DNA from: Phycisphaerales bacterium
GTDB taxonomy: Bacteria; Planctomycetota; Phycisphaerae; Phycisphaerales; UBA1924
Reading direction: 5' to 3'
Length of the DNA stretch: 56,313 nt
NCBI GenBank assembly: GCA_029260475.1
Contig: JAJDDE010000095.1
Span: 1 to 56,313, forward strand
Made by a program: the position numbers and the translations under genes. Below are positions 21,797-47,482 of this stretch, piece by piece (position 1 is the stretch's first letter; each line of letters starts with the position of its first letter). The notes under the pieces are model-generated. The model saw only the letters and a program-made list of their open reading frames with translations, was not told the origin of the DNA and made no database searches.

Positions 21797-24163
21797 TCAG
21801 CGCCGAGCGGTCACGAATCGTAATCGGAGTGCATTTCCGATCACAGACACCGAGCTGAAGCTCATCGCGGCGGCGGCGATCATTGGGCTGAGTAGGACGC
21901 CGAAGAAGGGGTAGAGCACTCCGGCGGCGATCGGGACGCCGGCGGTGTTGTACGCGAACGCGAAGAAGAGATTCTGACGGATGTTCCGCATGGTTGCACG
22001 GCTCAACTCGCGGGCACGGACGAGCCCGTTGAGGTCACCGCCGACGAGCGTGATGGCGGCGCTCTCGATGGCGACGCCCGCGCCAGTCCCCATCGCGACT
22101 CCGATGTCGGCTTGGGCGAGTGCCGGGGCGTCGTTGACGCCGTCCCCGGCCATGGCGACTTGATGGCCCGCTTGTTGGAGCTTGCGGATGACCTCCGCCT
22201 TCTGCTCGGGAAGGACATCGGCTTCAACTCGGTCGATACCGAGTTGTTCCGCGATCGCCTCGGCGGTTGTCCTGTTGTCGCCGGTCAGCATGAGTACGGC
22301 GAGGCCGTTGCGGTGGAGCTCGTCGATGGCTCTCTTGGTGGTCTCCTTGATTGGGTCGGCGACGGCGAGCAGGGCCGCGAGTTGCCCATCGATCGCTGCG
22401 AACATCGCGGTGCCGCCTTTACGGCGCTGCTCGTCAGCCTGGTCGGCCAATACCGCCACATCGACGCCCTCATTCTGCATGAGTGCGGGCGAACCGATGG
22501 CGACGCGCGCACCGTCAACAGTGGCGACGATGCCCTTACCGGTCACACTGTCGAAGGTGGTCGCGTCGAACCGTTGGTCGGTACGGTCTTCGAGTCCGAC
22601 GACGATGGCCTCCGCGAGCGGATGCTCCGAGCCTCGCTCTGCTGCCGCCATGAGCGCGAGGACGCGCTGCTCATCGAATTCGCTCTGCACCTCGACGACA
22701 ACCAGCTTGGGCTTGCCCTCCGTGAGTGTTCCGGTCTTGTCGACGACGATCATGGTGATCTTCTCGAAGGTCTCAAGCGCCGCGGCGTTCTTGATCAGCA
22801 CGCCCTGCTTGGCTCCCTGACCTGCCGCAACCATGATCGACATAGGTGTGGCGAGCCCAAGGGCACACGGGCAGGCGATGATGAGCACGGACACCGCGGC
22901 GATCAACGCATAGCTGAACGCGGGTGTGGGGCCGACGAGCAGCCAGACCACGAATGCAATCACGGCGACCGCGACAACGACCGGGACGAACCACGCCGCG
23001 ACCGAATCGGCGAGCCGCTGAATCGGCGCGCGAGACCGCTGGGCATCGGCGACCATCTGAACGATCTGAGCCAGCGTCGTTTCGGAGCCCGTACGGCTGA
23101 CGGCCATGATGAACGAGCCCGTCTTGTTGACGGTGCCGCCGGTCACTCCGTCACCCGTCGACTTCTCAACCGGAACGGGCTCGCCCGTGAGCATCGATTC
23201 GTCGACCGTGCTTCGTCCTTCGGTGACCTCACCATCGATCGGGATCTTGTCGCCCGGGCGCACCCGGACCTTGTCCCCGGCTCGGAGCTGGTCGACGGCG
23301 ACCTCTTCATCCGATCCATCGCCAGTGATCCGACGGGCTGTTGGCGGGGTGAGTTCAAGAAGCTCGCGGATGGCTCCGCCGGTCTGCCGGCGTGCTCGCA
23401 GCTCCATGACTTGGCCGAGCAGGACCAAGGTCACAATCACGGCCGCGGCCTCGAAGTAGACGCCCACGCGCCCAGCATCATCGCGGAGTGAGTCCGGAAA
23501 AAGCCCCGGAGCGATAGTGGCAACGACACTGAAGACGTACGCGATCGAGACGCCGATGGAGATGAGCGTCCACATGTTCGGACTGAGGGATCGAACAGAG
23601 CGGATGCCGCGCACGAAGAACGGCCATGCGCACCAGAGCACAACCGGCGTCGCCAAGACGAGTTCTGTCCATTGGCTCGTCGCGGGCCCGATCCATCGGT
23701 GGAATGGGTGTCCGAAGAGCATGTTACCCATGACATAGATCAGCAGCGGTGCGGTGAACACCGTGCCGATCCAGAACCGCCTAGTCATGTCGCGGAGCTC
23801 TGTGTCGTCCTGCTCTGCTGTGGCGTCTACGGGTTCGAGCGCCATGCCGCACTTCGGGCAATCGCCGGGGCCGACCTGGCGGACCTCGGGGTGCATCGGG
23901 CAGGTGTAGATCGCGTCCGGTCGCCCCGCGTCTGCTCTGTCATCGCCAGTGCGGCTTGAACAGCACGAATGCGGGGTCTCGGGCGCTTCGGCATCATCCG
24001 ACTGAGTGCCCGTGAACCTCGCAGGGTCGTCGCGGAACTTGGCCGCGCAGCGCGTGCTGCAGAACAGATACTCGTGCCCTTCATGGGTGACTGCGTCCGC
24101 TTCCTTTCCGGGGACAACCTGCATGCCGCAGACTGGGTCGGTGGGGATGGCTTCATTCGTCAT
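21797..24163 (-). CDS. copA: copper-type P1B ATPase with YHS and heavy-metal-binding N-terminus
   Basis: A 788-residue cation pump that would export Cu(I)/Ag(I) (or a similar metal) from the cytoplasm. The N-terminus has a YHS domain (DPVCGM at 9-14, [10 protein letters not shown] near 34-43) then a heavy-metal-binding domain (YTCPMHPEV ... DCPKCGM, residues 86-107), and no classical GMxCxxC domain. Core motifs are LTGEP (325-329), the channel CPC (431-433), phosphorylation-site DKTGT (475-479) and [20 protein letters not shown]. Eight membrane segments are expected. It is the last gene of the cassette and overlaps the APC permease gene by 11 bases. Metal identity is inferred from CPC plus context. 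Confidence 0.9.
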
Positions 24164-25493
24164 GCGTGTTCTCCTGCCGGCGGATAAACCACCACTCGGC
24201 CCCGAATATGATCGCCATGCCCACGACGGACACGATGAGGACGAGAGGGTCGGTCGTTGCCTTCATGTAGAAGAAGGCACCAAGCACCACCGCATCGAGC
24301 ACGAGTGCGGTGAGGACGATCGTCGCCTTGGCTCCGATGCCTTTGCGGAGGTGTCGGTACACGCCCCAGTGGATCGTCATGTCCATCACGATGTAGAAGA
24401 TCGCTCCGAGTGATGCGATGCGGCTGAGATCAAAGAAGATCGTCAACGCCATCGCGATCACAGCGGTGTAGACGAGCGTGTGCTTCTGGATTCGCCCGGG
24501 CATGCCGAAGTGGCGGTGCGGGACGAGGTCCAAATCTGTGAGCATGGCCAGCATCCGCGAGACTGCGAACATGCTCGCGATCACGCCCGAGATCGTGGCG
24601 ACGATCGCGAGAGCGATGGTGAGCCACTCTCCCCACTGGCCGACCGCGGGCTTCGCGGCTTCGGCGAGCGATGAATCGCGTGCGGCGATGATCTCGTCCA
24701 CGCTCAGGTTGCCAGCGACGGCGAGCGTGACCATCAGGTAGAGCCCGGTACAAATCACAAGGCTGACGATGATCGAACGCCCGACATTCTTCATGGGCTC
24801 CTTGATCTCGTCGCCGCTGTTCGTGATGGTCGTGAATCCCTTGTAGGCCAGAATCGAAATGGCAACCGCGGCGAGGAATCCGCCGACGCCGCCGCGGGCC
24901 TGCGAAGCCGAGCCGTCGCCGACGAGGTTGTCGAATGAGAGCCCGGACACCCAGAGCCCGATGCCCGCGAACACGGCGATGCCGCCGATCTTGATGATCG
25001 CAGTGATCTTGCTCAGGCCTCCGATTAGCTGATTGCCGAGCAGGTTGACGATGAAGGCCACGGCGATCAATCCGACACCCTGGGTCGGCACGAGCCATGT
25101 GTCGGATCCCTCGCCGAAGATCCGCATGGTGTATGTACCGAAGGTACGAGCAACCAGACTCTCGTTGATGACCATCGAGAAGTACATCAGCAGCGAACAT
25201 CCAGCGGTCACCACGCCCGGGCCGTACGCCTTCTTGAGGATCATCGCGATGCCACCCGCGGACGGGTACTCGTTGCAGACCTTGATGTACGAGTACGCGC
25301 TGAACGCGACGACGAGAGCTGCGGCGATGAAGGCGACGGGGAAGAGACCGCCTGCGAGTTCGGCGACTTGGCCGGTGAGAGCGAAGATGCCCGCGCCGAT
25401 CATGACGCCGGTGCCCATCGCGATCGATCCGGTGAGCGTCAGACTTCCCTTTTCGTAGTCGTCTCCGTGCTTGTGATCCTCGTGCTTGGTCAT
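24153..25493 (-). CDS. APC family permease
   Basis: A 446-residue integral membrane protein with about twelve hydrophobic segments. [16 protein letters not shown] is the first-helix signature of amino acid-polyamine-organocation carriers, and [19 protein letters not shown] is the conserved segment after helix 6. The N-terminus [16 protein letters not shown] is His/Asp-rich and could bind metal. It is sandwiched between the TRASH-repeat gene (2-base gap after its stop) and copA (overlap). An APC carrier inside a copper operon is uncommon; import of a metal ligand such as a thiol or histidine, or metal transport itself, are possibilities I cannot separate. ATG at 25493 follows GGAG. Confidence 0.85.
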
Positions 25494-25495
25494 GT

Positions 25496-26545
25496 TTACT
25501 CCTGAGGCAGCTTCGAGAGGTACTTCTGAGGGTCGGCCTTGAACTTCGGGAGGCATCCAGCGCAGCAGAAGCGAACGAACTGCGTGCCCGCGATGATCTC
25601 AACGGGCTCGCCCATGGAACCCAGCTTGCCGCCCGCGACGACGCAGGTGTCGATCGGGTACGCCCCACGTTGGGCGTCGGCGTACGCCTTGTCGAGCTTG
25701 GCCATGTACTTCGCGGGGTCGTTGATGAGCGACTTCTCGCACCCGCCGCAGCAGAAGCGGACGAGGCGATTCATATAGATGAAGTTGACCGGCTCGCCCA
25801 TGGAGCCGAGGGGGCCGCCGACCGGGCAGGTATCCAGGGGATACTCGGGAAGCTGAATCTCGATGATCTTCTTGTCGAGGGCTTCGAGATGCTTGGCGGG
25901 ATCAGCCTTGAACGCGTCGGCTGCGTCCGTGTTCGCGAGGCGGACCAGCCGGTTGTTGTGGACGTGGTTGATCGCCCTTTCGTCGAGCTTGTCGCCGGTG
26001 ACGATGCAGGTCTCGATCGGGTAGTGCATGAGCTGTTGCTCGACGATCTTGGCGTCGATCTCGCCCCAGTACTTGGCCTTGTTGCCCTCGAACTCGCCGA
26101 GGCAGCCGGCGCAGCAGAAACGCACCTCGCGGTTTTCGTAGACCTTCACAACCGGATCGCCCATCGATCCAAGCGCACCGCCGATGGGGCAATCGGTCAG
26201 TGTGTATGGGTACGTCGGACCGGGCAAGCCGGCACCGGTCACAGGGAGAGTTGGCACAGTCTCGCGTTGCCCGGGCTCGCGTTGGGCGACGGCCATCGTG
26301 ACGAACTGGTCCTTGCGGGTGTCATCCCACGCGAGGAACTGATTGCCACAGCCGGGGCAGCACAGCCCGACCCGGTTGCCTTTGTACTCGACTGTGCCGG
26401 CCGAGGGGACCACCGGCTCCTTGCCGATGGGACACATCGCGTTGATGGACGCAGCCTCCGCGCCCGACTCCGCTTGGGCGTTCGCGAACGGGTTAAGTGT
26501 GCAGACGCAGAGTGCGGCTGCTGCGATACTGAATGATTTGAGCAT
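25496..26545 (-). CDS. secreted protein with five TRASH/YHS-like repeats
   Basis: A 349-residue exported protein. A signal peptide (FSIAAAALCVCTLNPFANA) ends near residue 24. Five repeats of about 55-75 residues follow, each with a C-P-x-G (or similar) turn, a G-x-x-x-x strand and C-C-x-G-C: CPIGKEPV...LCCPGC, CPIGGALG...FCCAGC, CIVTGDKL...(no CC), CPVGGPLG...FCCGGC and CVVAGGKL...FCCAGC. The third has lost the C-terminal cysteines. TRASH/YHS motifs bind soft metals, so this is probably a periplasmic copper or silver store or chaperone. It starts 2 bases after the CusA-type gene, with GGAGCC upstream. Confidence 0.82.
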   Translation of the reverse strand: MLKSFSIAAAALCVCTLNPFANAQAESGAEAASINAMCPIGKEPVVPSAGTVEYKGNRVGLCCPGCGNQFLAWDDTRKDQFVTMAVAQREPGQRETVPTLPVTGAGLPGPTYPYTLTDCPIGGALGSMGDPVVKVYENREVRFCCAGCLGEFEGNKAKYWGEIDAKIVEQQLMHYPIETCIVTGDKLDERAINHVHNNRLVRLANTDAADAFKADPAKHLEALDKKIIEIQLPEYPLDTCPVGGPLGSMGEPVNFIYMNRLVRFCCGGCEKSLINDPAKYMAKLDKAYADAQRGAYPIDTCVVAGGKLGSMGEPVEIIAGTQFVRFCCAGCLPKFKADPQKYLSKLPQE

Positions 26546-26547
26546 GA

Positions 26548-30400
<3,853 letters not shown>

Positions 30401-30408
<8 letters not shown>

Positions 30409-32464
30409 GATCGTGACCCTCCATCTCGGTATTGCCAGCATTCATCGCGGCAGGCGTGAGCGGTGCAAACGACTCGCGGACCTCGCCGCAGCGGAGCATG
30501 GATGCTCCGAAGTACGGGTTGTTGATCTGCGTGCCGCGCTGGAGCCAATCCGCTCCCTTGTTGTCGAACGCCATCGGGCAGTGGGCGAGATTCCATGTCT
30601 CGCTGCCCCGATGCCCGAAGCGGCGTTGCAACGCGATGACAGCCTCGCTCATGTCCTCGAAGTGCGTCCGTGCGATCTCGATGTCGGTGATCGCACCGTC
30701 AACACGGAGCTTTGCCGCGGCCCGGCGCCATGCCCCGAGCGGTTCGCCCACGAGACCGGCCTCTTCAACGAAACCGAGCGCGGTCCGGAGGTCCGTAGCC
30801 GCCAGCGCAAACCCGCCGAGGTCGTCGACGGCGAGCGACTCCTGTGCATCCAAGTAGGCCGCGTAGACAGGCTTGAGCGCGAACACAAAGCTGTCCGGCA
30901 CGGTGACGCGTTCGGGCATCGCCGGCATTGGTCCGCCTGCCGTGTCGCCGTGCCCGGCGTGCGGGTTCCCGCCGCCGCCTCCACCGGGTGTCATCATGCT
31001 CGGCTTGGCGGCGATCTGCATCGCGCTGTCAACACGGAACGCGCCGTTGACCACGACCCGCTCGCCGCGGGTCAGACCTTCGCGGACGATGTAGAACTCC
31101 CCGGCCCGCGGCCCGAGCACAACGGCCCGCCCTTCGTAGGTCGGTTTCTCGGCATCCGGTACCTCGACATACACGACTGAGCGAGTTCCCGTGAACAGCA
31201 CCGCCGATCGCGGGATCACAAGCGGCTCGGCCACAGTGCTCGGATCACCAACCACGCCGAGCGACTCCGCGGGCACCATGTCCATGCCGCAGATGTCGCA
31301 TGGTCCCGGTCCATCTTTGACAACCGTCGGGTGCATCGGGCTGACCCAGCGGCCGGCGAGTTCGTCGTTGACGACGGCACCATCATTCGCGACGCGTGTC
31401 CGGACCACCGCCGAAGCGAACATACCCGGCTTGAGTCGTCGCTCGGGGTTCTCGACGGCGACGCGAACGGCCGCGGTCCGTGTGCGTTCGTCCACCATCG
31501 GCTCGATAAACGCGATGCGCCCCTCGAAGGTCTCGCCGGGGTGTGCCTCGACCGTGAAGGTCACAGGCTGGCCCCATCGGAGCAGCGGGAGTTGCGATTC
31601 GTACGCCTCCATGTCGAGCCAGAGCCGCGAGAGGTCGGCGACGGTCGCGATCGGTGCGCCGGTCTGGACATAGTCGCCCTCACGGACGGCCAGATGCGTG
31701 ACGACGCCGCCAATCGGCGCGAAGATGGCAAGCCGGTCGGAATCGAACGAGCCGTCCTCGACGGCCGCGATCTGCTCAGCGGTTAGTCCGAAGAGCCGGA
31801 GCTTCTCGCGTGATGCCGTCAGCGTGTCTCTTGTCGTCGAGCGAATAAGCTCGCTTGTACTGGTGGAACCGCTCGCCGCCTGGGTGGACTGTCGAAGTTC
31901 TTCAAACGCGGCGAGGACTTCGGGGCTGTAGAGCTCCGCCATGTGGTCGCCCTTCGCGACAGGCACACCGATGTAGTTCACGAACAGTCGTTCGATCCGT
32001 CCCGGGAAGTACGCCGTGAGCCGGGCGACCGAAGTCTCGTCGTAGGTGACCTTGCCGTAGAGCCGAATCTCTGCGGTTGGGAAGAACCGGCCGACGGGGG
32101 CTGTCTCGATCCGGCTCATCGCCTCCGAGGTTGCGCTCATGGTGACGCGAAGTTCGCTCCCCTCGCCGCCATCATCATCCGCAACGGGGATGAGGTCCAT
32201 GAAGCAGATCGGGCACTTGGCGTCCGGATCGGGCAGACGGACCGAGGGGTGCATCGAGCAGGTGTACATCTGCGGCTCAGCCGATTCGGCTTCGCCGTGC
32301 TCGTGGCCGGTATCGGCCACCTCGCCGACGGGCTCTGGCGCTGGCTTGCCGATCTGATACCCAATGACGAGGGCGGCCAGAATCGCCACCACCGCGATGC
32401 CCGCCGCGGTGTGTTTCCAGATCCATCCGAGCACGGATTGTGAACGATGCAAAAAGTTGCTCAT
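30401..32464 (-). CDS. cusB: RND periplasmic adaptor, CusB-type, with two metal-binding domains
   Basis: A 687-residue membrane-fusion protein linking the pump to the outer-membrane channel. After an N-terminal anchor (AAGIAVVAILAALVIGYQI) comes a heavy-metal-binding domain (YTCSMHPSVRLPD ... KCPICFMDL). The barrel-sandwich/lipoyl core follows (DHMAELYSPEVLAAFEEL, then AIFAPIGGVVTHLAVREGD). A second metal-binding domain (SPMHPTV ... CDICGMDM) is inserted in the C-terminal part. The last 150 residues (VYAAYLDAQESLAVDDL ... HCPMAFDNKGADWLQ) resemble the DUF3347 domain found fused to such adaptors. Usual CusB proteins are about 400 residues, so this is a heavily extended form. Overlaps its neighbours by 4-8 bases. 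Confidence 0.9.
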
Positions 32465-33900
32465 GGCTGCACCTCGTCAGAGTCAGTCTCAGTTGTGGAT
32501 GCGGTTGCAGGCTCTGTCGGCACGGCTCGGCCGACGAGTGTGTTCAGTCGTGCGAGTGCTTGCCCCCGGTCCGCCCGCGCACGCTCGGCCGAAACCGCGA
32601 ACTCAAGCAGCGTCCGCTCGGTGTCGAGCAGATCGAGAAAGCTCGTCTCACCGGCGCGGAAGCCTGTGAGGGAGGCACGCAGCGATTCCTCGGCCTTGGG
32701 GATTAGCGTCGTCTCGAACAGCCGAACACGACGATCGGCGTCCGTGTGCTCGAACCATGCACGCTGGATCGACGCGGTGATCCGATTCGCTTCGTCGGCT
32801 CGCTCGAATGACACCGCGAGCCGGCGGGCGAGCGCTTCACGAATGCCCGCGTTGTACTTGTCACGCCATAGCGGGACGGTGATACCAAAGCTGAGCAGGA
32901 TCGGATCATCACCGCTCTCTGCAATCGAACTATTGATGGCCTCGTTGGTGACGATGTAGTCGAGGCCGACGGTGAAGTCCGGCAGACCTTCTTTCCGGGC
33001 GACATCAGTCCGGATCCGCTGCTCTTCGATCCGCTCGTCGAGCGCGAGCAGCACGGGGTTGGAACGCCGAGCGATCTCTGCGAGCGCAGGTCCATCAACA
33101 GAGGCCACGCGACCCGGAAGCTCGGTGAGTGCTTCGACCGGTGCGTCGGTCGGCCGGTTTAGAGCTGCGTTCAGGTCCGCGACGTAGGTGGGCCGCATCG
33201 ATCGAAGCTGGGCGAGCCGATCTTCAAGCTGCCCCAACTCGACCTGCACGCGGATGAGTTCCGGGTGCGAGCCGGAGCCGACCCGGTAGCGGGCGCGGAC
33301 CACCTCCTCGAACGAGCTCAGCAATTCGAGGTTGTCGCCCGTGATGCGGATCGCGGCATCGAGGTAGGCAACCTCGTGGAGCGTCTCGACGACACGCTCG
33401 GTGACGGTGAGCCTCGCCGCCTCAAACTGCTGCCATGCGGCACGGGCCGCCATCGCGGCAGCGTCTTCACGATCACTCAGAAGCCCAGGCCATGGGAACG
33501 ATTGACTCACACCGACGCGCGCCTGCTGTGCTCCGGTCCGTGTCTCGACCTCGTCGAGGAAGAAGCCGAAGTTCACCCTCGGGTCGGGCAGCGAACGCAC
33601 CTGCGGAAGCCGCTCTGCTGCGGCGGCCCATCGCTGGTACGCCGCCTCGACCTTTGGGCTGTGATACAGGGCGTAGCGAACAAACTCATCCGCGGACGCA
33701 CCCGTGATGAGAGCCGGCGCAACAACATCGGACTCTGATTCGGAGCGGTAGACGGATCGCGAAGGTGCTTCGGCATCAGCCGGTAGGGAACGGGCGTAGG
33801 GAGGTGACAGGCCACGGGCGGGATCGAACGGCGACGAGCAGCCGCCGGTGATTCCGACCGCCGCGGTGCCCACCGCGCACGCGATGAGACGAACGGCCAT
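32461..33900 (-). CDS. cusC: outer-membrane efflux lipoprotein, CusC/TolC-type
   Basis: A 479-residue outer-membrane factor. The start at 33900 gives a lipoprotein signal peptide with lipobox ITGGC at about residue 20 and follows AGGAG; an in-frame ATG further upstream would spoil the signal. The body shows the two OEP repeats with long helices (YHSPKVEAAYQRWAAAAERL, RVGVSQSFPWPG, later FGITVPLWRDKYNAGI), as in TolC-like channels. Stop overlaps the CusB-type start by four bases, so the three genes form a CBA efflux operon. Confidence 0.88.
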   Translation of the reverse strand: MAVRLIACAVGTAAVGITGGCSSPFDPARGLSPPYARSLPADAEAPSRSVYRSESESDVVAPALITGASADEFVRYALYHSPKVEAAYQRWAAAAERLPQVRSLPDPRVNFGFFLDEVETRTGAQQARVGVSQSFPWPGLLSDREDAAAMAARAAWQQFEAARLTVTERVVETLHEVAYLDAAIRITGDNLELLSSFEEVVRARYRVGSGSHPELIRVQVELGQLEDRLAQLRSMRPTYVADLNAALNRPTDAPVEALTELPGRVASVDGPALAEIARRSNPVLLALDERIEEQRIRTDVARKEGLPDFTVGLDYIVTNEAINSSIAESGDDPILLSFGITVPLWRDKYNAGIREALARRLAVSFERADEANRITASIQRAWFEHTDADRRVRLFETTLIPKAEESLRASLTGFRAGETSFLDLLDTERTLLEFAVSAERARADRGQALARLNTLVGRAVPTEPATASTTETDSDEVQP

Positions 33901-33948
33901 GGGAGGCTCCTGGGTGTTTGGAGGAACGAGTGTCCGAGTAACAGCAAC

Positions 33949-33981
33949 AGGGACGGAACGCACTTAGCGCGCACCGTCCCT
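33949..33981 (-). terminator. hairpin between small Cys-rich gene and cusC
   Basis: AGGGACGG (33949-33956) pairs perfectly with CCGTCCCT (33974-33981) around a 17-base loop. It lies in the only sizeable gap upstream of cusC and could attenuate read-through or serve as an operator. Confidence 0.4.
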
Positions 33982-33995
33982 ATGAGACTCGGGCT

Positions 33996-34430
33996 CTACG
34001 TTTGCCAAACGCCCAGAAGGGCCTGCACTTCGTTGTGGGTCTTGCTCGCGCGGAGTCCGACGACCAGCGACGCCAGCGAAGGCGTCGTGTCATCGGGCTC
34101 GATCACAGGGGTGATCTTTGGCGGGCCGTTTGGAAGCCCCGTGACCGAATCGCGATCGGTCCTCGGGAGCGGTGCATCAGGGAGGCGTTCAGGTGCTGGT
34201 GTCGGGGAGATACCGCACCGGCATGGACCATCGCTCATCGGGCAGAACGCGTCGCTCCCGCAGCCGAAGTCAGAATCGGTCGGGGGGATCGGCTCCCCGC
34301 AGCAGTTCACCTCGACTGCGGGCACATGGCATGAAGTCTCGCCGCAGCGGTCCTGGCCAGCAGCGAACCCCATCCCAAGACGGGGGAGGCCGCTAGCGAT
34401 GAGCACCAAGATGGCAAGTATTCTGATCAT
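33996..34430 (-). CDS. small Cys-rich exported protein
   Basis: A 144-residue protein with a hydrophobic N-terminus (ILAILVLIASGLPRLGMGFA) typical of a signal peptide. The mature part begins with a cysteine-dense segment (CGETSCHVPAVEVNCCGE, then FGCGSDAFC and CRCG), about nine Cys in sixty residues, then a Pro/Asp-rich tail. It is unrecognised. It heads the CusCBA set just as another small Cys/His-rich exported protein (42245) heads the CzcCBA set, so a periplasmic metal-binding or sensing role is plausible. An earlier in-frame ATG at 34445 is possible. Confidence 0.6.
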   Translation of the reverse strand: MIRILAILVLIASGLPRLGMGFAAGQDRCGETSCHVPAVEVNCCGEPIPPTDSDFGCGSDAFCPMSDGPCRCGISPTPAPERLPDAPLPRTDRDSVTGLPNGPPKITPVIEPDDTTPSLASLVVGLRASKTHNEVQALLGVWQT

Positions 34431-34523
34431 GGTCAAAAAAAGCATAGCCGGATTTCCGCTGACTGACGAACCGGGCACGCAGCACGATTGTTCCCACTCG
34501 TCCCGCACACATTGCAGGTGTGT

Positions 34524-35432
34524 TCAATGCGGAGTGATCAGGGGCTCGCCTTCAAGCCTGCCTTTAGGCAGAACTTCAATGGTGATGTGGCCTATGCCGA
34601 ACTCGGTTTCCAAGTGACTTCGCAATCGACAACGAAGCTCATCGGCTTCGCTAAGCCCGGCATCATCGCGCATCGCTATTCGGACCTCGATCGAAGTCGT
34701 GCGTTCATCAATGGGCCACACATGAAGGTGTGCCACCGCCTCCACGCCGGAGATGCGCCCGATACTCTGGCTGATCTCCTCGATTGATAAGTGATCAGGA
34801 ACACTCTGCATCAGAATCCGGATGCACCGCTTCATCGGTGACCACGACATCCACACAATGTAGACTGAGATTCCGATGGTCGCGACGATGTCGGTCCAGT
34901 ACCAGTCAAACAGGATGATCAGGGTGCCGGTGATGATCACCGCCACCGAGGCGAGGGCGTCGGCGATGTTGTGCAGGAACGCTGCCTTGATGTTCACGCT
35001 CTCCTTGGACATCGAATAGGTGAGCACGGCGGTCGCCGCGTCGACGACCAGTGCGATCCCAGCCACGATCACCATCATCCACCCATCGACCTCGGGCCGG
35101 TCGAACATCCGGGTGATCGCCTCGATGAGCAGGTAGCCCGCGATAACCATGATGGACGTGAGATTGATCAGTCCGCCAACGACCTCGGCTCGGCCGTAGC
35201 CGAAGGTGCGATGCTCGTCGGCGGGTCGCTTGGAGATCCGCCGGGCCACCAGAGCTAGCAGCAACCCAGCTGCATCACTGAAGTTGTGCAGAGCATCGGC
35301 GACGAGGGAAAGGCTGCCGGACAGCACGCCCCCGACCACCTGGGCCACCGTCAACAGAAGGTTGATGGCGACGGCCCAGGCGAGCCGGCGGGTTCCGAGG
35401 TCGGATCCGTGATGATGGTCGTGGTTGCTCAC
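34524..35432 (-). CDS. czcD: cation diffusion facilitator, CzcD/ZitB-type
   Basis: A 302-residue inner-membrane metal/proton antiporter exporting divalent cations such as Zn, Co or Cd from the cytoplasm. The N-terminus is His-rich (SNHDHHHGSD). Six hydrophobic segments carry the paired metal-site motifs LVADALHNFSDA (helix 2) and AAFLHNIADALASV (helix 5). The C-terminal cytoplasmic domain (HLHVWPIDERTTSIEVRI) is the metallochaperone-like fold. GTG start at 35432 follows AGAAGG and lies 9 bases after the lipoprotein stop. Confidence 0.9.
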   Translation of the reverse strand: MSNHDHHHGSDLGTRRLAWAVAINLLLTVAQVVGGVLSGSLSLVADALHNFSDAAGLLLALVARRISKRPADEHRTFGYGRAEVVGGLINLTSIMVIAGYLLIEAITRMFDRPEVDGWMMVIVAGIALVVDAATAVLTYSMSKESVNIKAAFLHNIADALASVAVIITGTLIILFDWYWTDIVATIGISVYIVWMSWSPMKRCIRILMQSVPDHLSIEEISQSIGRISGVEAVAHLHVWPIDERTTSIEVRIAMRDDAGLSEADELRCRLRSHLETEFGIGHITIEVLPKGRLEGEPLITPH

Positions 35433-35441
35433 GAATACCTT

Positions 35442-35960
35442 CTACTGGAGCGGAACGGCGACGTCCTGCCGTTCACCGCCGGCGGTTTCGATCTCGATCC
35501 AGAGGCTCGCGCCGGCCATGGTCGCAGGTGCTTCGGTCTGGCCGTGGAAGTGGTCGTCGTGGGCGTCCGCCTTGGACTTGAGTGCACCGGTCCCGGCCTG
35601 ATCGCCGATCCAGAAACGCACGGCGGCGGGAATCGGCCCAGACTCAACTTCGAGATCGAGGTGCAATTCGGAAGAAGGCTTGATGTCGCTGGATACCGAC
35701 ACCGCCAGCGTCGTCCCGGCGATCGTCACGCTGCCGAGCGACCGCATCTCGCCGTGGTCATGATCGTCGTGCTCACCGTGTTCACCCTCGGCATGGTCGT
35801 GCCCCTCATGGTCGTCGCCGTCACCAGCGTGATCATGACCGTCGTCCGCGGAGTGCGTTTCGGCGGACTTTGATTCTGAGGACTCCCCGCAGCCGGGCAG
35901 CGAGACCGACAGTGCGATGGCCGTACCGGCGACGGCAAGAATCTTGATGAGGTCGTTCAT
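35442..35960 (-). CDS. His/Asp-rich lipoprotein
   Basis: A 172-residue lipoprotein with lipobox SLPGC at about residue 24. Residues 33-72 are almost entirely His, Asp, Glu and Gly (HDHAGDGDDHEGHDHAEGEH and on), a classic unstructured metal-binding tract. A beta-rich C-terminal domain follows, with DAHDDHFHGQ inside it. Located between the CzcA-type pump and CDF transporter, it probably buffers zinc or another divalent metal in the periplasm. Start follows GGAG. Confidence 0.75.
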   Translation of the reverse strand: MNDLIKILAVAGTAIALSVSLPGCGESSESKSAETHSADDGHDHAGDGDDHEGHDHAEGEHGEHDDHDHGEMRSLGSVTIAGTTLAVSVSSDIKPSSELHLDLEVESGPIPAAVRFWIGDQAGTGALKSKADAHDDHFHGQTEAPATMAGASLWIEIETAGGERQDVAVPLQ

Positions 35961-35962
35961 AT

Positions 35963-38900
35963 TCAGGACTCCTTCGAGGTGATGGCCTTGGGTCGGCGGA
36001 ACGCACCGACAAGCCGGGAAAGCACGGACGGGTGTTCAGCGGGACGACGCTCGGGCTTGTGGCCGAAGACGAGCGAGTATCCCGCTGGAACAACGATGAG
36101 ATTCAGGAACGTGGAGGTCAGCAGGCCCCCGAGGGTGACGATGGCGAGGGGCGCGAGCAGTTCGCTGCCCGGTTCACCCGCGGCCAGTGCCAGCGGGACG
36201 AGCCCGAGCACCGCGGAGATGGCCGTCATCAGGATCGGCACGAGCCGCTCCATGGACCCTTGGACGATGGCCTCGCCGAGGGGGACGCCCTCGGCTTCCA
36301 TGAGGTGGTTGTAGTGATTGATGAGCAGGATGCCGTTGCGAACCGCGATCCCGAAGAGCGTGATGAAGCCGACGAGGCTGGCGATGGACACCACGGGCGG
36401 GATGTACGGGCCACCGATGCCGATCAACGCCAAGGTGTTGTGGACCAGCCCGCCCCCCTCGGTGATATAGATCGCCGCGATGCCGCCGATGAGCGCGAGG
36501 GGCATGTTCAGCATCACGAGCACAGCGGCCCGCATTGATCCCGTCGAGATCTGGAGCAGCATGAGCATGATGAGCACGACAGCAACGCCCGCAACAAGAA
36601 TGGTCCGGGAGGCCGACTGCTGCGCCTCGAACTGACCGCCGTAGGACACGGTCATGCCGGCCCGTTGGACAATGGGATCGACACGCTCTTGCACCTGGGC
36701 CACCAAGTCGCCCAGGTTGGACCCTTCAGCGACATTGAGCGACACCACCGCCTTGCGCTGTGCATTCTCGCGGGTGATGAGGTTGCTCGATCGCTCGGGG
36801 CCGATGTCGGCGACATCGCTCAGGCGAACGGTGGCCCCACCCCGGCCCCTGAGCAGCAGGTCGCGGACCTGCCGGATGGACTCACGTTCCTCGGGTGCGA
36901 GCCGCACGACAAGATCGTACTGCCGCACTCCTTGGTTCACCTTATCCACGACCTCGCCATAGAGAGCTTCGCGGACCTGCTCGGCGGCGTCGGCTGGGCT
37001 GAGGCCGACCGCCGCGAGCTCGGCGTGCCGGTAGCGGATGGGAAGCGAGGTGATAAGGACCTCGCGGTTGGCATTCACATCGCGAGCGCCCGGCAGTCCT
37101 TGGAGTTCGGCCTCGATCGCCTTGGCGACATCACGAAGCTCGGTCAGATCCTCACCAAAGACATTGATTGCGATCGCAGCGGGCGTACCTGACAGCACAT
37201 GGCTGAGCCGGTGCTCGATGGGCTGGCCGACCATCGTCGTGATGCCGGGGACAGCCCCAAGAATGCGGTCGATCTGTTCACGCACCTCGAATCGGTCGCT
37301 CCCCTCATCGACGGTGACCTCGATCTCGGAGTTGCTGACCGGCTCGGCGTGCTCGTCACGCTCGGCCCGTCCGGTGCGCCGTGAGACGGACCGGACGCCC
37401 TTGATCTCGACGAGCTGCTTCTCGACCTCCGTTGCGAGCCGATCGCTCTCGACGATCGATGTACCGGGAGGAGCGAGCAGGAAGACGGTGAACGTGCCCT
37501 CGTTGAACGACGGGAGGAATGAGCTTCCAAACGTGCTCGCCAGCAAGAGTGCGGCGGCGGTTACGGCACCGGCGGTGCCGAGCACCCACGCCCGGTACCG
37601 AATGGCTGCCCGGAGTGACGGCTCGTACGCCCGCTTCAGAAGGCGGACCAGGAATCCGTCCCGGTCCTCGTGCTTGCCGCCGAGCTTGCCCTTGAGCAGG
37701 AAGCGACACATCGCGGGCACGACCGTCAGGGCGACGACCAGTGAAGCGAGGATCGAGATCATGTAGGTGAGTGCCAAGGGCTGGAAGAATCGGCCTTCCA
37801 GCCCCTGCAGGAAGAGCAGTGGCACGAACACCATGACGATGATGACCGTCGCGAAGACCATCGCCGGTCGGATCTCGTTACTGGCGTCGAAAATGACCTC
37901 CGTAAATGGACGCTTGTCGGCCTCGGGCATGGCCCGGTTCTGTTTCAGGCGTCGGAAGACATTCTCCACATCGATGATCGCGTCGTCGACGAGGACGCCG
38001 ATCGCCACTGTCAGACCACCAAGAGTCATGACATTCAGCCCGAGGTTCATCGCGTCCATCATCAGGAGGCCGACGGCCAGTGAGATCGGGATCGCGGTGA
38101 GGGTGATGAGCGTCGTCCGCAGATTCATCAGGAACAGGACGAGCACAACGAGCACGATGATGATCGCCTCGCCAAGCACCTTGGTCACGTTGTGGACCGC
38201 GCGGTCGATGAAGTGTGACTGGCGGACGACATCGCGGTTGAGCACGACGCCTCCGGGAAGCGTCGGCTCGATCTGGTCGAAGAGCGCATCAAGATTTTCG
38301 GTGAGGGCGAGCGTGTTGGTGCCCGGCGACTTTTGGATAGACAGCACGACAGCGGGCTTCCCGCCCTCAGAAGCGGTTCCCCGCTTGATCGCCGGCCCGA
38401 GGATGACCTCGGCAACCTGACCGATCGTCACGGGGACGCCCTCGTGGTACTTGATGACCGTGTTGGCGATGTCCTCCGGGCGTGTCACCCGGCTTTGCTG
38501 ACGGATCGGGATCTCGAAGTTGTCCACGTTCACCAGATAGCCGCCGCTCGCGGTGCTGTGCGCTCCACCCGCGGCCTCGACCACATCCGTGATGGTCAGG
38601 TCGTAGAGCCTCAGCCGTTCCTGATCGACATTGACCTGGTATTCGGGCAGCTCGCCGCCGATCGCGACGACTTGGGCGACGCCAGGCACCGCGAGGATCT
38701 TGGTCCGAAGGTCGAACTCGCCGTAGGAGCGGAGCTGCATCGGATTAACCGACCCGTCGGGTGACGACAGTGAGATCAACATGATCTCGCCGGCGATGGA
38801 GGTGATCGGGGTAATAAACGGTTCGACGTCGTCGGGGAGGTTCTCGCGAGCGGTCACGAGCCGTTCGGCGACGAGCTGCCTGGCATCGAACAGGTCCGAG

Positions 38901-39199
38901 CCCCATTCAAGGTCCACCCAGACGATGCCCAGGCCGATCGCGCTGGCGCTTCGGACCCGCCGAACGCCGGACATGCCGTTGACGGCGGTCTCAATTGGGA
39001 AAGTGACGTACTGCTCGACCTCGTCGGCGGCGAGCCCGCCGGACTCGGCCATGATCGTGACGGTCGGCGCGTTGAGTTCGGGGAACACATCGACGCTCAT
39101 CCTCGGCAGGCGATAGCCGGCGTAGCCGACGATCATGACCGCTGCGATGAGCACGAGCGTGGAATAGCGGAGTGAGAAGCGGATGACGGCTTTCAACAT
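35963..39199 (-). CDS. czcA: heavy-metal RND efflux pump, CzcA family
   Basis: A 1078-residue RND antiporter of normal length for the heavy-metal group. The N-terminal RLPRMSVDVFPELNAPTV and EVEQYVTFPIETAVNGMSGV are family motifs. The transmembrane-4 signature reads VAIGVLVDDAIIDVENVFRR, with two Asp rather than the DGA of classical zinc CzcA or the DAA of CusA, so substrate cannot be assigned by this motif. The C-terminal half mirrors the first. Only two bases separate it from the HlyD-type gene upstream and two from the lipoprotein downstream. Confidence 0.88.
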   Translation of the reverse strand: MLKAVIRFSLRYSTLVLIAAVMIVGYAGYRLPRMSVDVFPELNAPTVTIMAESGGLAADEVEQYVTFPIETAVNGMSGVRRVRSASAIGLGIVWVDLEWGSDLFDARQLVAERLVTARENLPDDVEPFITPITSIAGEIMLISLSSPDGSVNPMQLRSYGEFDLRTKILAVPGVAQVVAIGGELPEYQVNVDQERLRLYDLTITDVVEAAGGAHSTASGGYLVNVDNFEIPIRQQSRVTRPEDIANTVIKYHEGVPVTIGQVAEVILGPAIKRGTASEGGKPAVVLSIQKSPGTNTLALTENLDALFDQIEPTLPGGVVLNRDVVRQSHFIDRAVHNVTKVLGEAIIIVLVVLVLFLMNLRTTLITLTAIPISLAVGLLMMDAMNLGLNVMTLGGLTVAIGVLVDDAIIDVENVFRRLKQNRAMPEADKRPFTEVIFDASNEIRPAMVFATVIIVMVFVPLLFLQGLEGRFFQPLALTYMISILASLVVALTVVPAMCRFLLKGKLGGKHEDRDGFLVRLLKRAYEPSLRAAIRYRAWVLGTAGAVTAAALLLASTFGSSFLPSFNEGTFTVFLLAPPGTSIVESDRLATEVEKQLVEIKGVRSVSRRTGRAERDEHAEPVSNSEIEVTVDEGSDRFEVREQIDRILGAVPGITTMVGQPIEHRLSHVLSGTPAAIAINVFGEDLTELRDVAKAIEAELQGLPGARDVNANREVLITSLPIRYRHAELAAVGLSPADAAEQVREALYGEVVDKVNQGVRQYDLVVRLAPEERESIRQVRDLLLRGRGGATVRLSDVADIGPERSSNLITRENAQRKAVVSLNVAEGSNLGDLVAQVQERVDPIVQRAGMTVSYGGQFEAQQSASRTILVAGVAVVLIMLMLLQISTGSMRAAVLVMLNMPLALIGGIAAIYITEGGGLVHNTLALIGIGGPYIPPVVSIASLVGFITLFGIAVRNGILLINHYNHLMEAEGVPLGEAIVQGSMERLVPILMTAISAVLGLVPLALAAGEPGSELLAPLAIVTLGGLLTSTFLNLIVVPAGYSLVFGHKPERRPAEHPSVLSRLVGAFRRPKAITSKES

Positions 39200-39202
39200 G
39201 GC

Positions 39203-40678
39203 TCAATCCTCCCCTTCGTGGAACGTGCCATCGGAGTGGAAGTGGCCACCCTTCTGGATCGACCCGCTGGTGGCGAGCATGAGCTGGAAAGCACCGTCGA
39301 GCACAACCTCGTCGCCGTCACGCAGACCGCTAAGCAGGGCAACCCACCGCCCGTCGTCAAGACCCAAGTCGGCCTCCATGCGGATCGCCTCGTTCGGGTT
39401 GCTGGGATTTCGGCGGAAGATGACGGGCGAGAGTCCATCACGCTGCACCGCGGCGAGTGGGATGGCGAGTTCGGGCGAAGCCGTCGCGTCGGTCACGATT
39501 TCGAGTTGAGCCGAGACGCCCGGCCGGGCCCAGGGCCTGAGCTCACTGGGTACGACAAACAGTTCGAGCGTGCGGTCGTTGGGATCGCCGGCCAGCCCAA
39601 GCGAGATGGTGCCATCCATGGTTTGGGTCAGAGGTACCGCCCGTCCCGCGGCGGTCGGCGTTGGCGGGACGATCCGGGCTGTGAGCCCGTCCCGCAGCAC
39701 ACCCAGATCGCTTTGGAGCGCAGACGCCCTGAAACGGAGCCGGTCGGGCTGCACGACGGTGACGACTGGCGTCTTCTCGTCTGCCCAAGATCCGTTGGTC
39801 AGGCCCAGCATCTCCACGACACCGGCTTCGGACGCGGTCACTTCGATCGCGGCGATCGTGGCCCAAACGGGCTCGGTCCCATGAGGCGTCTCGACGGTCC
39901 GGGCGAGTTCGTCCCTCGAACGGGAAACGACCGACGAGGCGGCGTCGAGCAGATAGTCCAGGCGTGACCGGGCCGCACGGAGATCAGCAACGGTCTGCTG
40001 CCGGTCCGCTCCGAGTTCCGCCTTCTTCTCCATCACGTTGGCAAGGTCGGCTCGGGTGCTCGCGAGAGACGCACGGGCCTGGGTAAACTCATCAACACGG
40101 CCGCCACCGGCTTCGCGGACCGACTGCAACTGCTCGACCCGCTCGTTCCAGACAGTAACGCTCTCGTGGAGGCTGTCCTCGTGCTGCTGATGCGCCGCGA
40201 GCAGCGGCTCGAAGGTATTCAGGCGTGCGTCGAGCCGCTCGATCTGTGCCTCGGCGTCTGCGAGTTGCTGCTGCATTTCTCGCCATGACGGCGAATCGAG
40301 CCGATAGAGCGGTTGTCCCGCTTCGACCCGATCGAACTGTTCGACGACCAGCTCAACCCGCCCCGGCACGGCGGTCCGGTACTCGCGTCGCGCCGTGGGC
40401 AGGTACTCAAACCGGCCCGGCACGCGGAGCGTCTGCTCAACCCGCCGACGCTCGACCTTGACGAAGCTGATGCCGAGGTTCGACCGCACCGCGGCCGGGA
40501 TGGCCACACGGTCGGACCCGGTTGCCTCGGCCTCGACCTCTGACGAGTGGTCGTGCCCGTCCCCCTCGCCGTGCTCTGCCTCGCTGGATGTCTTCGGAGA
40601 TCCGCCATCGCAGGCGGCCAGTGTCAGCGGCAGAAGTGCCGCGAGGGCGATCGCGATCGCCCGTTCCATGATTTTCAT
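39203..40678 (-). CDS. czcB: RND periplasmic adaptor, CzcB-type
   Basis: A 491-residue membrane-fusion protein with a lipoprotein-like signal (LPLTLAACDGG, Cys near residue 23) and a short His/Glu-rich stretch (EHGEGDGHDHSS). The lipoyl/barrel-sandwich half (YRTAVPGRVELVVEQFDRVE) is followed by a long coiled coil (about residues 140-250) and a second half with IPLAAVQRDGLSPVIF. The longer than usual hairpin suits a tripartite CzcCBA pump. It overlaps the czcC-type gene by four bases. Confidence 0.87.
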   Translation of the reverse strand: MKIMERAIAIALAALLPLTLAACDGGSPKTSSEAEHGEGDGHDHSSEVEAEATGSDRVAIPAAVRSNLGISFVKVERRRVEQTLRVPGRFEYLPTARREYRTAVPGRVELVVEQFDRVEAGQPLYRLDSPSWREMQQQLADAEAQIERLDARLNTFEPLLAAHQQHEDSLHESVTVWNERVEQLQSVREAGGGRVDEFTQARASLASTRADLANVMEKKAELGADRQQTVADLRAARSRLDYLLDAASSVVSRSRDELARTVETPHGTEPVWATIAAIEVTASEAGVVEMLGLTNGSWADEKTPVVTVVQPDRLRFRASALQSDLGVLRDGLTARIVPPTPTAAGRAVPLTQTMDGTISLGLAGDPNDRTLELFVVPSELRPWARPGVSAQLEIVTDATASPELAIPLAAVQRDGLSPVIFRRNPSNPNEAIRMEADLGLDDGRWVALLSGLRDGDEVVLDGAFQLMLATSGSIQKGGHFHSDGTFHEGED

Positions 40679-42159
40679 CGGGATGCCTCCTCGGCGGGCG
40701 TATCGCCTCTCGCCGCGGTGTGTGGTGTGGTTGCTGTTGTGGTGTCCTCGTCGGTGGCGGGCTCGACTGAAGCCGGAGATTCCGGCTCGTCCGGACCGAG
40801 CAGCCGAGTGATCTCGATCGCCGCGTCGGTCTCGGCCAGACGAAGATCGAGTAGACGGCTCTTGGCCTCGAACCGTCGCGTGACGGTTTCGAGCAAGAGC
40901 AGCGTGTTGACCTCGCCAAGATCGATCAGTTGCTCGACTTCGGATGCCTGCTCGTCGAGCATCGGCACAAGTTCACGCTCGAATGCATCTCGCTGCGTTC
41001 GCGAGGCGTTATACGCGGCACGGGCCATTGCGAGTTCGCGGGTCAGACGCTCAAAGGTCGTCTCCGCCACGGCCCGAGCCACCTCGCGGCGAGCCTTCGC
41101 TTCCGCGATGCCCGCCCGGTTCGCGTTGAGGATTGGTATGGGTATCGACACGCCAAGCAGCAGGCGGTCGTCGTTGTCCTCGCTCCCGTAGCCCGTGCCG
41201 ATCGTGATGTCCGGATACTGCTTGCGAACTTCCAGGCGGAGTGTCTCCTCGGCGACCTGATACTCGGCCCGCCGCACCGCGAGGGTCGTGTTCGCCTCGA
41301 TGAGTCGCCCGATCGCGTCGTTCATCTCAGCGATCGAAGCGGGCGGCAGCGCCGGCAGCAACTCCACCGGAGCATCCGGCGGAAGCCCCATCAGACCGAG
41401 AAGTTCGACACGGGCCCGGGCTTCTGCGAGCACCGCCCCTGCGACATCCGCTTGCGTCTCGACCAATTCGGCCCGCAGGAGCCGAGCCTCGACCCGCGTA
41501 AGTTCTCCCGCCGTCTCCAAACGGTCAGTGATGGCCGAGATCCGTTCGACCTGATCGATCACCTCACGCAGCAAGCGGAGCCGCTCGGACGCCGCGGACC
41601 AGGACGCCCAGGCCGAGCGAACCGCGGCCCGCGTGCTCCACTCGGCATCGACGATCCGGCGGAGCTCGGCCTCGTACGCCGCCCCGGCCCGATCCTTCTC
41701 GACGCCGAGCCGCCCCGAGATCGGGATCGTCAGGCTCAGCGTGAGCCCGTACTCGAACGGCCCCGCCGGCGAGAGAATCTCCGCCCCGTCGAAGCCGAAT
41801 TGCGGGTCCTCCCATAGCCCCGCCGTCTCGAAGGTCGCGAGCGCGACACCGGCATCGAGGCGAGCGAGCCGGAGGTCGGGGTTATAGAACATCGCGAGCA
41901 CCTCGCCCTCGGCGGGGGAAAGCCCGTCGTTCGGGTCGAACCGCTCCGGGACCTGGTTGCCGGCCTCCGACAGCCGCTCAACAAATTTCGAGATGGGTTC
42001 AGTGGCAACGAGCCGTGCATCGAGCGAGGCCCGATGATCGGTCAGCTCCAGCGGCACCCGATCGTACGACTGGCAGCCCGCCAGCGCGATCAGGGCGACC
42101 GCCGAGCCGAGGCCCGGCAGCATGACCCGCGTTCGACGCGGGCGTTTCAGGTTGTCCAT
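40675..42159 (-). CDS. czcC: outer-membrane efflux lipoprotein, CzcC-type
   Basis: A 494-residue outer-membrane factor with signal peptide and lipobox (VALIALAGCQS). Two OEP domains are visible: MFYNPDLRLARLDAGVALA ... YGLTLSLTIPISGRLGVEKD and RAEYQVAEETLRLEVRKQYP ... LLLGVSIPIPILNANRAGI. The C-terminus is a Pro/Thr-rich tail. First member of the CzcCBA set, 85 bases after the small Cys/His-rich gene; AGGAA lies upstream of its ATG. Confidence 0.87.
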   Translation of the reverse strand: MDNLKRPRRTRVMLPGLGSAVALIALAGCQSYDRVPLELTDHRASLDARLVATEPISKFVERLSEAGNQVPERFDPNDGLSPAEGEVLAMFYNPDLRLARLDAGVALATFETAGLWEDPQFGFDGAEILSPAGPFEYGLTLSLTIPISGRLGVEKDRAGAAYEAELRRIVDAEWSTRAAVRSAWASWSAASERLRLLREVIDQVERISAITDRLETAGELTRVEARLLRAELVETQADVAGAVLAEARARVELLGLMGLPPDAPVELLPALPPASIAEMNDAIGRLIEANTTLAVRRAEYQVAEETLRLEVRKQYPDITIGTGYGSEDNDDRLLLGVSIPIPILNANRAGIAEAKARREVARAVAETTFERLTRELAMARAAYNASRTQRDAFERELVPMLDEQASEVEQLIDLGEVNTLLLLETVTRRFEAKSRLLDLRLAETDAAIEITRLLGPDEPESPASVEPATDEDTTTATTPHTAARGDTPAEEASR

Positions 42160-45680: not shown

Positions 45681-47481
45681 CGGGTACGAGCGCACCGGGC
45701 CGATTGACTACAAGAACGGCTATCGCAGCTCGTCATGGATGACGCTCATGGCGGACCGTTTGGAGCAGGCGCATCCCTTGCTTCGATCAGATGGCATTCT
45801 CTGCGTGACCATCGACGACTACCAGGTGAATGAACTGGCATTGCTTTTGGACAGTATCTTTGGCAGTGAGCGAAACTTGGGAGTGTCGGTCATTCGAAAC
45901 AATCCCTCGGGCCGGTCCACGGTTCGCGGGCTGTCGATCTGTCACGAGTACGCGCTCTTCTACCAGCGGACCGACTCGGCGAACCTCGCACGGTTGCCGC
46001 GGACCGAGCAGCAGCTCGAAAGGTTTGACGTTGAGGACGGACAGTACGTGGACTGGCGCAACTTCCGCAAAGATGGCGGCGCAGTCACCTACCGCACCGA
46101 GCGTCCGAAGCAGTACTACCCCGTCTACGTGAGGCAGTCTGATCTCACGCTTCGCATCCCTGACATGGACTGGGACAGTTCAGAGAGAGCATGGATTTGT
46201 CTAGATGAGCCGGGTGGAGACGAGGAGGCTATTTATCCCATCGATGCAAACGGGAATGAGCGAGTCTGGAGCCTGAATAGCGACTCAGCTCGCGCCGCTA
46301 TCCCCGACCTCGAAGCTCGTCGCACGAACTCTGGCGAGATCCAGGTCTATCGCAAACACACCCCGGCGGATGGTGTCGTGCCACGTTCATGGTGGGACAA
46401 GAACACCTATGCCGCACGTGAGCACGGAAGCGCAGCGTTGACGGATCTGTTCGGCGAATCAAAGGTCTTCTCCTTTGCGAAATCGCCGCACGCCGTCAAG
46501 GATTGCGTATGGGTCAGCGGCCTTGACTCCTCTGAGTCGGAGTGGGTCTTGGATTTCTTCGCCGGATCCGGGACGACAGCCCACGCTGTAGTGAACATGA
46601 ACCGCGAGGATGATGGAGCACGACGCTTCGTTCTTGTTGAGATGGGCGCGTATATCGAGACCGTCCTACTTCCTCGAATCAAGAAGGTCAACTACGCCGC
46701 CGAGTGGAAGGCTGGAAATCCAGTCCTTGCTGAAGGCTACCCACCTGTCGGGACGCGGGTCGTCAAAGTAGTGTGCCTCGAATCGTACGAGGATGCGTTG
46801 AACAACCTACGCGAAGCGGACACGTCGTCGCACGAAGTTCTCGAAGGGCTCGGCGATTCGGCGATGCGTGAGTCGTTCATGCTGCGATACATGCTCGAAA
46901 TGTCTCACAGAGGAAGTCCTTCGCTACTGGACGTCGAAGGTTTCGTGGATCCCAGTAGATATCGCCTGACGATCCGTCCTCCAGGTTCGGATGACAGTGT
47001 TCCGGCCGCCGTCGATCTGATCGAGACTCTCAATTGGCTGCTCGGACTTCGAGTCATGAGCATCGCTTCGCCCAAGAGCTTTAAGGCGAACTTCGCTCGT
47101 GACGCCGAAGGTCGTCTCGCCGTCAAGGGCCGCATCAAAGAAGACCCTGACGGCCCATGGTGGTTCCGCACCGTCACCGGCACGACGCCCGATGGCAAGC
47201 GTGCCCTGATCATCTGGCGGAAGCGACCCGGCGGCGACGAGCCTGAGGGCATCGAGCAGGACAACGCCGTGCTCGACGCGTGGTTCCGCACGCAGGGCTA
47301 CTCGACCACCGACAGCGAGTTCGACATCGTCTGGGTCAACGGCGACAACAACCTTGCCAATCTCCGCCAGGACGACACGCCCGACGACGGGCTCGGCGAG
47401 ACCGGCTGGAAGGTGCGGATCATCGAGCAGGACTTCCACCGCCTGATGTTCGACACATCCGATGTGCCGGGAGGGGCGTGA
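45681..47481 (+). pseudogene. mod: type III restriction-modification methyltransferase (mod), 5' end removed by IS
   Basis: About 600 codons of a beta-class adenine methyltransferase. The residual protein starts with FGYERTGPIDYKNGYRSSSW, the segment that normally follows the catalytic DPPY motif, so motif IV and everything before it is missing. Motif I is present (VLDFFAGSGTTAHAVVN), as are the target-recognition region and C-terminal part. The IS3 element abuts the break, and the missing 5' part is not on its other side, so insertion was accompanied by deletion. An internal ATG at 45739 could produce a fragment, but without DPPY it cannot methylate. One base separates its stop from the res start. 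Confidence 0.82.
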
Positions 47482-47482
47482 G

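Follow-up and report, generated by a model that had tools for sequence, protein, structure and literature searches.

A secreted protein with five TRASH/YHS units encoded beside a CusA-type pump in a Phycisphaerales bacterium, a putative periplasmic copper or silver chaperone

Cus pumps are usually served in the periplasm by the chaperone CusF, a single small OB-fold domain with Met/His/Trp ligands. Csp/DUF326 proteins are cysteine-rich copper-binding storage proteins, NosL is a lipoprotein, and CopM is a cytoplasmic protein with a single TRASH domain. In the Sulfolobus copTMA operon, CopM is described as a TRASH-domain copper-binding protein encoded beside a copper ATPase (PMC5328820). In a published classification, L24 and YHS are grouped into a single TRASH family, and NosL, the periplasmic copper chaperone of nitrous oxide reductase, is described as a secreted protein with two TRASH-like treble clefs that have lost zinc binding (PMC4999995). 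The same source treats NosL and MerB as cases of duplication with loss of zinc binding, and this provides a precedent for units that have been disarmed, that is, have lost their metal site.

We analysed a 56,313-nucleotide stretch of DNA (the window) from a Phycisphaerales bacterium (GCA_029260475.1, contig JAJDDE010000095.1, positions 1 to 56,313). A first-pass annotation had noted in it a secreted protein with five TRASH-like repeats, one of them without its cysteine motif. Our analysis bore this out. A unit profile, built from 168 unit seeds of 51 relatives with the units of this protein (TRASH5) included, found five units scoring 66, 82, 41, 93, and 74 bits for units 1 to 5. Independently of this profile, three Pfam entries passed their gathering scores, namely YHS (PF04945, 40.5 bits; gathering score 30.3), TRASH_HVO_1752_C (PF24273, 35.9 bits; 27), and Arc_trans_TRASH (PF08394, 28.0 bits; 27). 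Judged by eye, the N-terminus has the look of a type I signal peptide, with a hydrophobic core followed by ANA/AQA, and secretion is likely. Lipoprotein identity was considered and dropped, since no lipobox was seen by eye at the N-terminus. The features are listed in Table 1.

Table 1. Features of TRASH5 and its operon, in positions of the window.
Feature	Position	Strand	Basis
TRASH5, 349-residue secreted-type protein with five TRASH/YHS units	25496..26545 (including stop)	-	frame exact; unit profile and Pfam
Signal-peptide-like start, residues 1-25	26471..26545	-	judged by eye
Unit 1, residues 33-90, intact CCPGC, distinct N-terminal unit type	26276..26449	-	unit profile, unit tree
Unit 2, residues 114-172, intact CCAGC	26030..26206	-	unit profile
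Unit 3, residues 175-232, disarmed (CCxxC lost, first cysteine kept)	25850..26023	-	unit profile, alignments
NHVHNNRLVRL, residues 193-203, inside unit 3	25937..25969	-	invariant in 9/9 five-unit proteins of the clade
Unit 4, residues 235-293, intact CCGGC, extra relative to four-unit proteins	25667..25843	-	unit profile, unit tree
Unit 5, residues 296-349, intact CCAGC	25499..25660	-	unit profile
P1B ATPase of the CopA copper type, itself carrying YHS and HMBD domains	21797..24163	-	Pfam, NCBIfam
APC-type amino acid permease, His-rich N-terminus, 2 bases downstream of TRASH5	24153..25493	-	Pfam
Heavy-metal RND pump CusA, with all three Met that form the metal site in E. coli CusA	26548..30408	-	NCBIfam, PDB match, alignment
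Adaptor CusB, two heavy-metal-binding domains (HMBD), DUF3347 match below the cut-off	30401..32464	-	Pfam
TolC/CusC-type outer membrane protein (start uncertain)	32461..33963	-	Pfam
Small protein rich in Cys, probably secreted, encoded upstream of TolC (start uncertain)	33996..34508	-	related loci

Each intact unit of TRASH5 resembles the TRASH/YHS family in its CxxxC region, and the predicted order of helices and strands fits. TRASH5 differs from that family in that its single secreted chain contains five units, that a further vicinal cysteine is present (CCxxC), and that 23 to 25 residues separate the first cysteine from the CC, more than the 19 to 22 residues found at the corresponding spacing of TRASH domains. 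Compared with CopM, an operon with an ATPase is common to both, but CopM is archaeal and has no RND pump, while TRASH5 has five units. NosL has two units and another client, and its profile was absent from the Pfam matches of TRASH5 at E <= 1. The likeness to Csp/DUF326 lies in the cysteine-rich copper-binding type; those proteins are four-helix bundles, and PF03860 (DUF326) matched neither TRASH5 nor anything else in the genome of the window. The likeness to CusF, in proposed role, cellular place, and partner pump, is an analogy that would rest on operon position; TRASH5 belongs to a different family, is cysteine-based and multi-site, and gave no match to PF11604 (CusF) at E <= 1. Pfam and NCBIfam contain no named entry for a secreted, multi-unit, CusA-linked family, and none was found in the open-access literature that we searched. 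In that literature nothing was found joining the YHS domain with CusA, or with copper in Planctomycetes; articles joining the TRASH domain and planctomycetes concerned mer genes, and those joining CusF, planctomycetes, and RND made no mention of TRASH or YHS. The TRASH/YHS domain itself is known.

The predicted model of TRASH5 had a mean pLDDT of 76.8 and a pTM of 0.64, with units 2 to 5 mostly at 80-95 and unit 1 lower. Units 2 to 4 were each modelled as a strand pair followed by a short helix and a long helix. Foldseek with this model gave no match at E <= 0.001, and a sequence search of the PDB gave nothing relevant (best E 0.72). The best VIA structural matches, covering residues 176-230 (unit 3) only, were to the YHS-like part of toluene/methane monooxygenase hydroxylases, with Z up to 6.1 and an rmsd of 2.7 over 55 residues, in a range where unrelated matches also occur. 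The match to ribosomal L24e (Z about 3.5 to 4.4) was likewise in the range of unrelated matches.

A cysteine followed by CxxxC was present in units 1, 2, 4, and 5 of TRASH5, whereas unit 3 had the first cysteine only. Homologues without conserved cysteines, named in the first-pass annotation as a finding that would count against it, were not the rule, as the four positions were C in 291, 281, 277, and 281 of 302 aligned units. Among 26 related loci, seven encoded five-unit proteins, all with a disarmed unit 3, and 13 encoded four-unit proteins, all intact. The rest were a three-unit protein (L023), a verrucomicrobial locus (L021), and four loci matching only the YHS parts of CopA-like ATPases. 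The arrangement is not a matter of chance, as 20 relatives share the order of units, with four or five of them per protein. In 19 of these 20 loci, all but L022, the gene directly upstream was CusA. In a unit tree of 196 rows and 60 columns, with many weak forks, the units clustered by position across proteins and unit 1 was separate from the others. Within the five-unit proteins, unit 4 formed one clade, and units 2, 3, and 5 needed two changes owing to L041. The simplest history would place the loss of the third unit's site in the five-unit clade and treat the fourth unit as an addition. Recent tandem duplication with all units alike was ruled out by the position-wise grouping in this tree.

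Our profile search of 392 planctomycete genomes gave some match in 247. Multi-unit relatives, with two to six units and mostly three, were found in 66 of the 392, counted by hand at a best E <= 1e-25, a value that implies several units. The multi-unit form is therefore less unusual than had been thought at first, and the variation in repeat number that the annotation had proposed to look for does exist. Architecture was counted in 86 proteins with three or more units, some of them from near-identical loci: 44 had three intact units, 21 had four, and one (L062) had five, while nine had five with unit 3 disarmed, eight had three with unit 1 disarmed, two had three with unit 2 disarmed, and one had six with units 1 and 4 disarmed. 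The six units of L070 (G387) and L049 fall into two halves of three, and in both halves the first unit is disarmed (first Cys to Asp); this gene lies directly before TolC-CusB-CusA. In the Verrucomicrobiales locus L021 (5000-6500), three consecutive single-unit TRASH/YHS genes precede a CusA; their products have lipobox-like starts by eye and look like an unfused version of a three-unit protein.

The surroundings of the multi-unit relatives were examined for the 65 cases other than the window. In 28 of them the stretch contained CusA/CusB/CopA-type genes, while none of 20 further stretches of the same contigs, hand-picked and not random, did so. In the other 37 loci no CusA, CusB, or CopA-type gene was present in the fetched stretch, which was a contig end in some cases and the full 18 kb in many. 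This suggests that the family also exists apart from the pump, and pump-less relatives are common outside the window's own order.

In the window, TRASH5 belongs to a compact minus-strand run, TolC-CusB-CusA-TRASH5-APC permease-CopA, whose members overlap or lie 2 bases apart; CusA is directly upstream of TRASH5 with a 2-base gap. Both the copper-type character of this operon and the CusA-type pump just upstream agreed with the first-pass annotation. CusA matched TIGR00914 with 781.3 bits (cut-off 701.45), and its best PDB match was E. coli CusA. It has Met at all three positions aligned with M573, M623, and M672 of the E. coli protein, which we take to be the Cu(I)/Ag(I)-binding site. This Met triad was complete in every one of the 34 loci in which the CusA-type pump could be aligned across the three sites (18 loci, L002-L005 and L007-L020, and 16 multi-unit-relative loci across the phylum), a count that leaves out partly aligned pumps, such as those of L067, L072, L078, L112, and L115, and that somewhat favours the Met-bearing class, as pumps were picked by best match to the CusA of the window. 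The triad was held even in pumps only 34 to 40% identical to this CusA, and other RND pumps of the same loci, closer to the window's second pump, were without it. CopA matched the copper-type TIGR01511 with 602.9 bits (cut-off 397) and has the motifs CPC, YN, and MSFSS, presumably marks of the copper type. Given a CopA of the copper type and the Met triad of CusA, the metal is likely to be Cu(I)/Ag(I), as was first supposed.

Several neighbouring genes recur in related loci. The APC permease between TRASH5 and CopA is a recurrent member of copper islands; relatives of it follow the TRASH gene in L002, L003, L004, L006, L007, L011, L058, and L061, and one in the copper island of Phycisphaera mikurensis is 62% identical over 458 residues. 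The small Cys-rich protein opens the operon and has no Pfam match. ORFs resembling it precede TolC in most related loci, with an SCC...CPMSxGPCxC cluster and a conserved HNEVQALLGxW end. The region directly upstream, at 34524-42159 on the minus strand, encodes a CDF exporter together with another RND operon (35963-39199, 39203-40678, and 40675-42159), probably of a CzcCBA-like type. Because these adjoin the TRASH5 operon, the window contains a metal-resistance island of about 20 kb.

A search for CusF (PF11604) gave no match in the genome of the window, a 97% complete draft, so that its absence is not certain. CusF was rare in the phylum, with matches in 16 of 392 genomes, 13 of them over the cut-off. 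Six of these 16 belong to the window's own family and five of the six also have a multi-unit relative, which means that the two can coexist; by their coordinates, the CusF-like matches were not beside the TRASH gene.

Although unit 3 of TRASH5 has lost its CCxxC, it is well preserved. In the alignment of the nine five-unit proteins of the clade, NHVHNNRLVRL is the longest invariant run of the whole protein, and C180, the first cysteine of the unit, is likewise retained. Both His of HVH were present in all nine disarmed third units but in only 4 of 281 intact units at the same columns. A profile of the nine had as its top match the intact third unit of the four-unit protein of L010 (68.2 bits), with third units of other four-unit proteins among the best matches, and this comparison indicates that unit 3 derives from an intact unit. 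Over eight pairs, w was 0.04 to 0.48 for unit 3, the highest value coming from a pair with dS 0.20, and 0.02 to 0.22 for the other units. With a mean identity of 0.75, against 0.73 to 0.83, unit 3 is the least or second least constrained unit. These values point to purifying selection on a unit that is changed, not decayed; the idea of a decaying remnant was excluded by this range of w together with the long invariant run. As the nine proteins are akin to each other, the loss of the site counts as one well-kept event and not as nine. Separate losses occurred elsewhere, in unit 1 of several three-unit proteins, where the first cysteine became Asp, and in unit 2 of L110 and L119, which is without CCxxC. 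In this clade, unit 3 would have lost the ancestral CCxxC site and gained a different conserved surface with a His-x-His. Most likely it docks to the pump or spaces the other units; binding of Cu in some other way seems less likely.

On balance, the sequence evidence makes it probable that TRASH5 serves the CusCBA efflux pump in the periplasm as a Cu(I)/Ag(I) chaperone or buffer, in the manner of CusF but with another fold and several sites. Each intact unit would bind Cu(I) or Ag(I) through its thiols, giving four thiolate sites. Metal delivered by CopA or leaking in would be caught in the periplasm and handed on to CusB/CusA. TRASH5 would thus act as a relay and buffer and not as a long-term store, a preference that follows from its fixed place beside the pump and from sites that have not been multiplied. 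Several points weigh against a chaperone. CusB has two HMBD domains of its own, which could do the work of CusF with no need of TRASH5. In the periplasm, disulfides may form between vicinal cysteines, and the ion bound by treble clefs with four thiols is often structural zinc. Most of the multi-unit relatives (37 of 65) had no pump genes found nearby.

The first-pass annotation had suggested a multi-site periplasmic store feeding the pump. Its multi-site architecture was upheld, but with TRASH5 beside an efflux pump and CusF not found, storage is less favoured than a chaperone or buffer. As a store or sponge without the feeding step, the protein would hold several Cu(I) per chain and so keep free copper low, but would not pass metal specifically to the pump. 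Having four intact sites of four cysteines in each chain would suit this, as would the relatives without a nearby pump and a genome in which the DUF326 four-helix copper-binding protein (PF03860) was not found. We nevertheless consider a store unlikely, since the position beside CusA is kept (19 of 20 loci) far beyond the needs of a free-floating store, the number of units is small, with exactly three intact ones in 44 of 86 proteins with three or more units, and one unit is disarmed yet well preserved, unlike what selection for capacity would give. Rather unlikely as well is a reading in which zinc plays a structural role in treble-clef units and the protein helps to scaffold or assemble CusCBA, with no part in metal trafficking. 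The treble-clef class is mostly structural zinc-binding (PMC4999995), and units without all or most cysteines occurred at 21 places in 12 kinds of background with the remaining motif kept. Against this, four of the five units of TRASH5 hold four cysteines at fixed places while the surrounding sequence varies, and the context of the gene is one of copper.

It is very unlikely that mercury, cadmium, or another soft metal is served instead of copper or silver, or that several are. The second, probably CzcCBA-like RND operon and the CDF exporter next door would fit such a role, and TRASH-like folds were also the origin of the organomercurial lyase MerB (PMC4999995). However, the Met triad of CusA (34 of 34), the copper-type CopA, and the multicopper oxidase and CopB of the P. 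mikurensis island all speak for copper.

If TRASH5 is indeed a chaperone or buffer of the pump, the family would be a candidate route for metal to RND pumps in bacteria without CusF, and its presence in 66 of 392 planctomycete genomes and in a cultured strain with a plasmid-borne copper island makes this candidate testable. A wider and rather unlikely picture is that a multi-unit relay working through thiols took over from CusF in planctomycetes and in some Verrucomicrobia, with a separate place and task for every unit. Unit 3 of the five-unit clade would then have swapped its Cu(I) thiolate site for a His-x-His beside the kept cysteine, as a pump-docking module or a site for copper in another state, and the added fourth unit would have kept the thiol sites at four. 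The relatives form a natural series for module number and site loss, from three single-unit lipoprotein-like genes in a row to fusions of three, four, five, and six units. As disarmed units occur at several positions, the series allows one to ask what a metal-binding module does once its site is gone.

Spread of the family by plasmids was considered and dropped, as a plasmid search gave one matching record, pPSMK1 of Phycisphaera mikurensis NBRC 102666, which carries the copper island. Its three-unit relative, WP_014438594.1, encoded by PSMK_RS15525, is annotated as a 'hypothetical protein' and lies directly before TolC, CusB, CusA, a copper-resistance multicopper oxidase, and copper resistance protein B (CopB). 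A separate four-helix copper-binding protein, a metal-sensitive regulator, and an APC permease are annotated within 12 kb. Unit 1 of WP_014438594.1 has lost all four cysteines, leaving two intact units.

In a few matches across the phylum a TGA lay within the alignment, which raised the question of selenocysteine; in one of them, G251 (L109), the protein has three intact units in an open frame. Elsewhere in the window, at 45739-50794 on the plus strand, two long overlapping frames look by eye like the methyltransferase and the large partner of a restriction-modification system.
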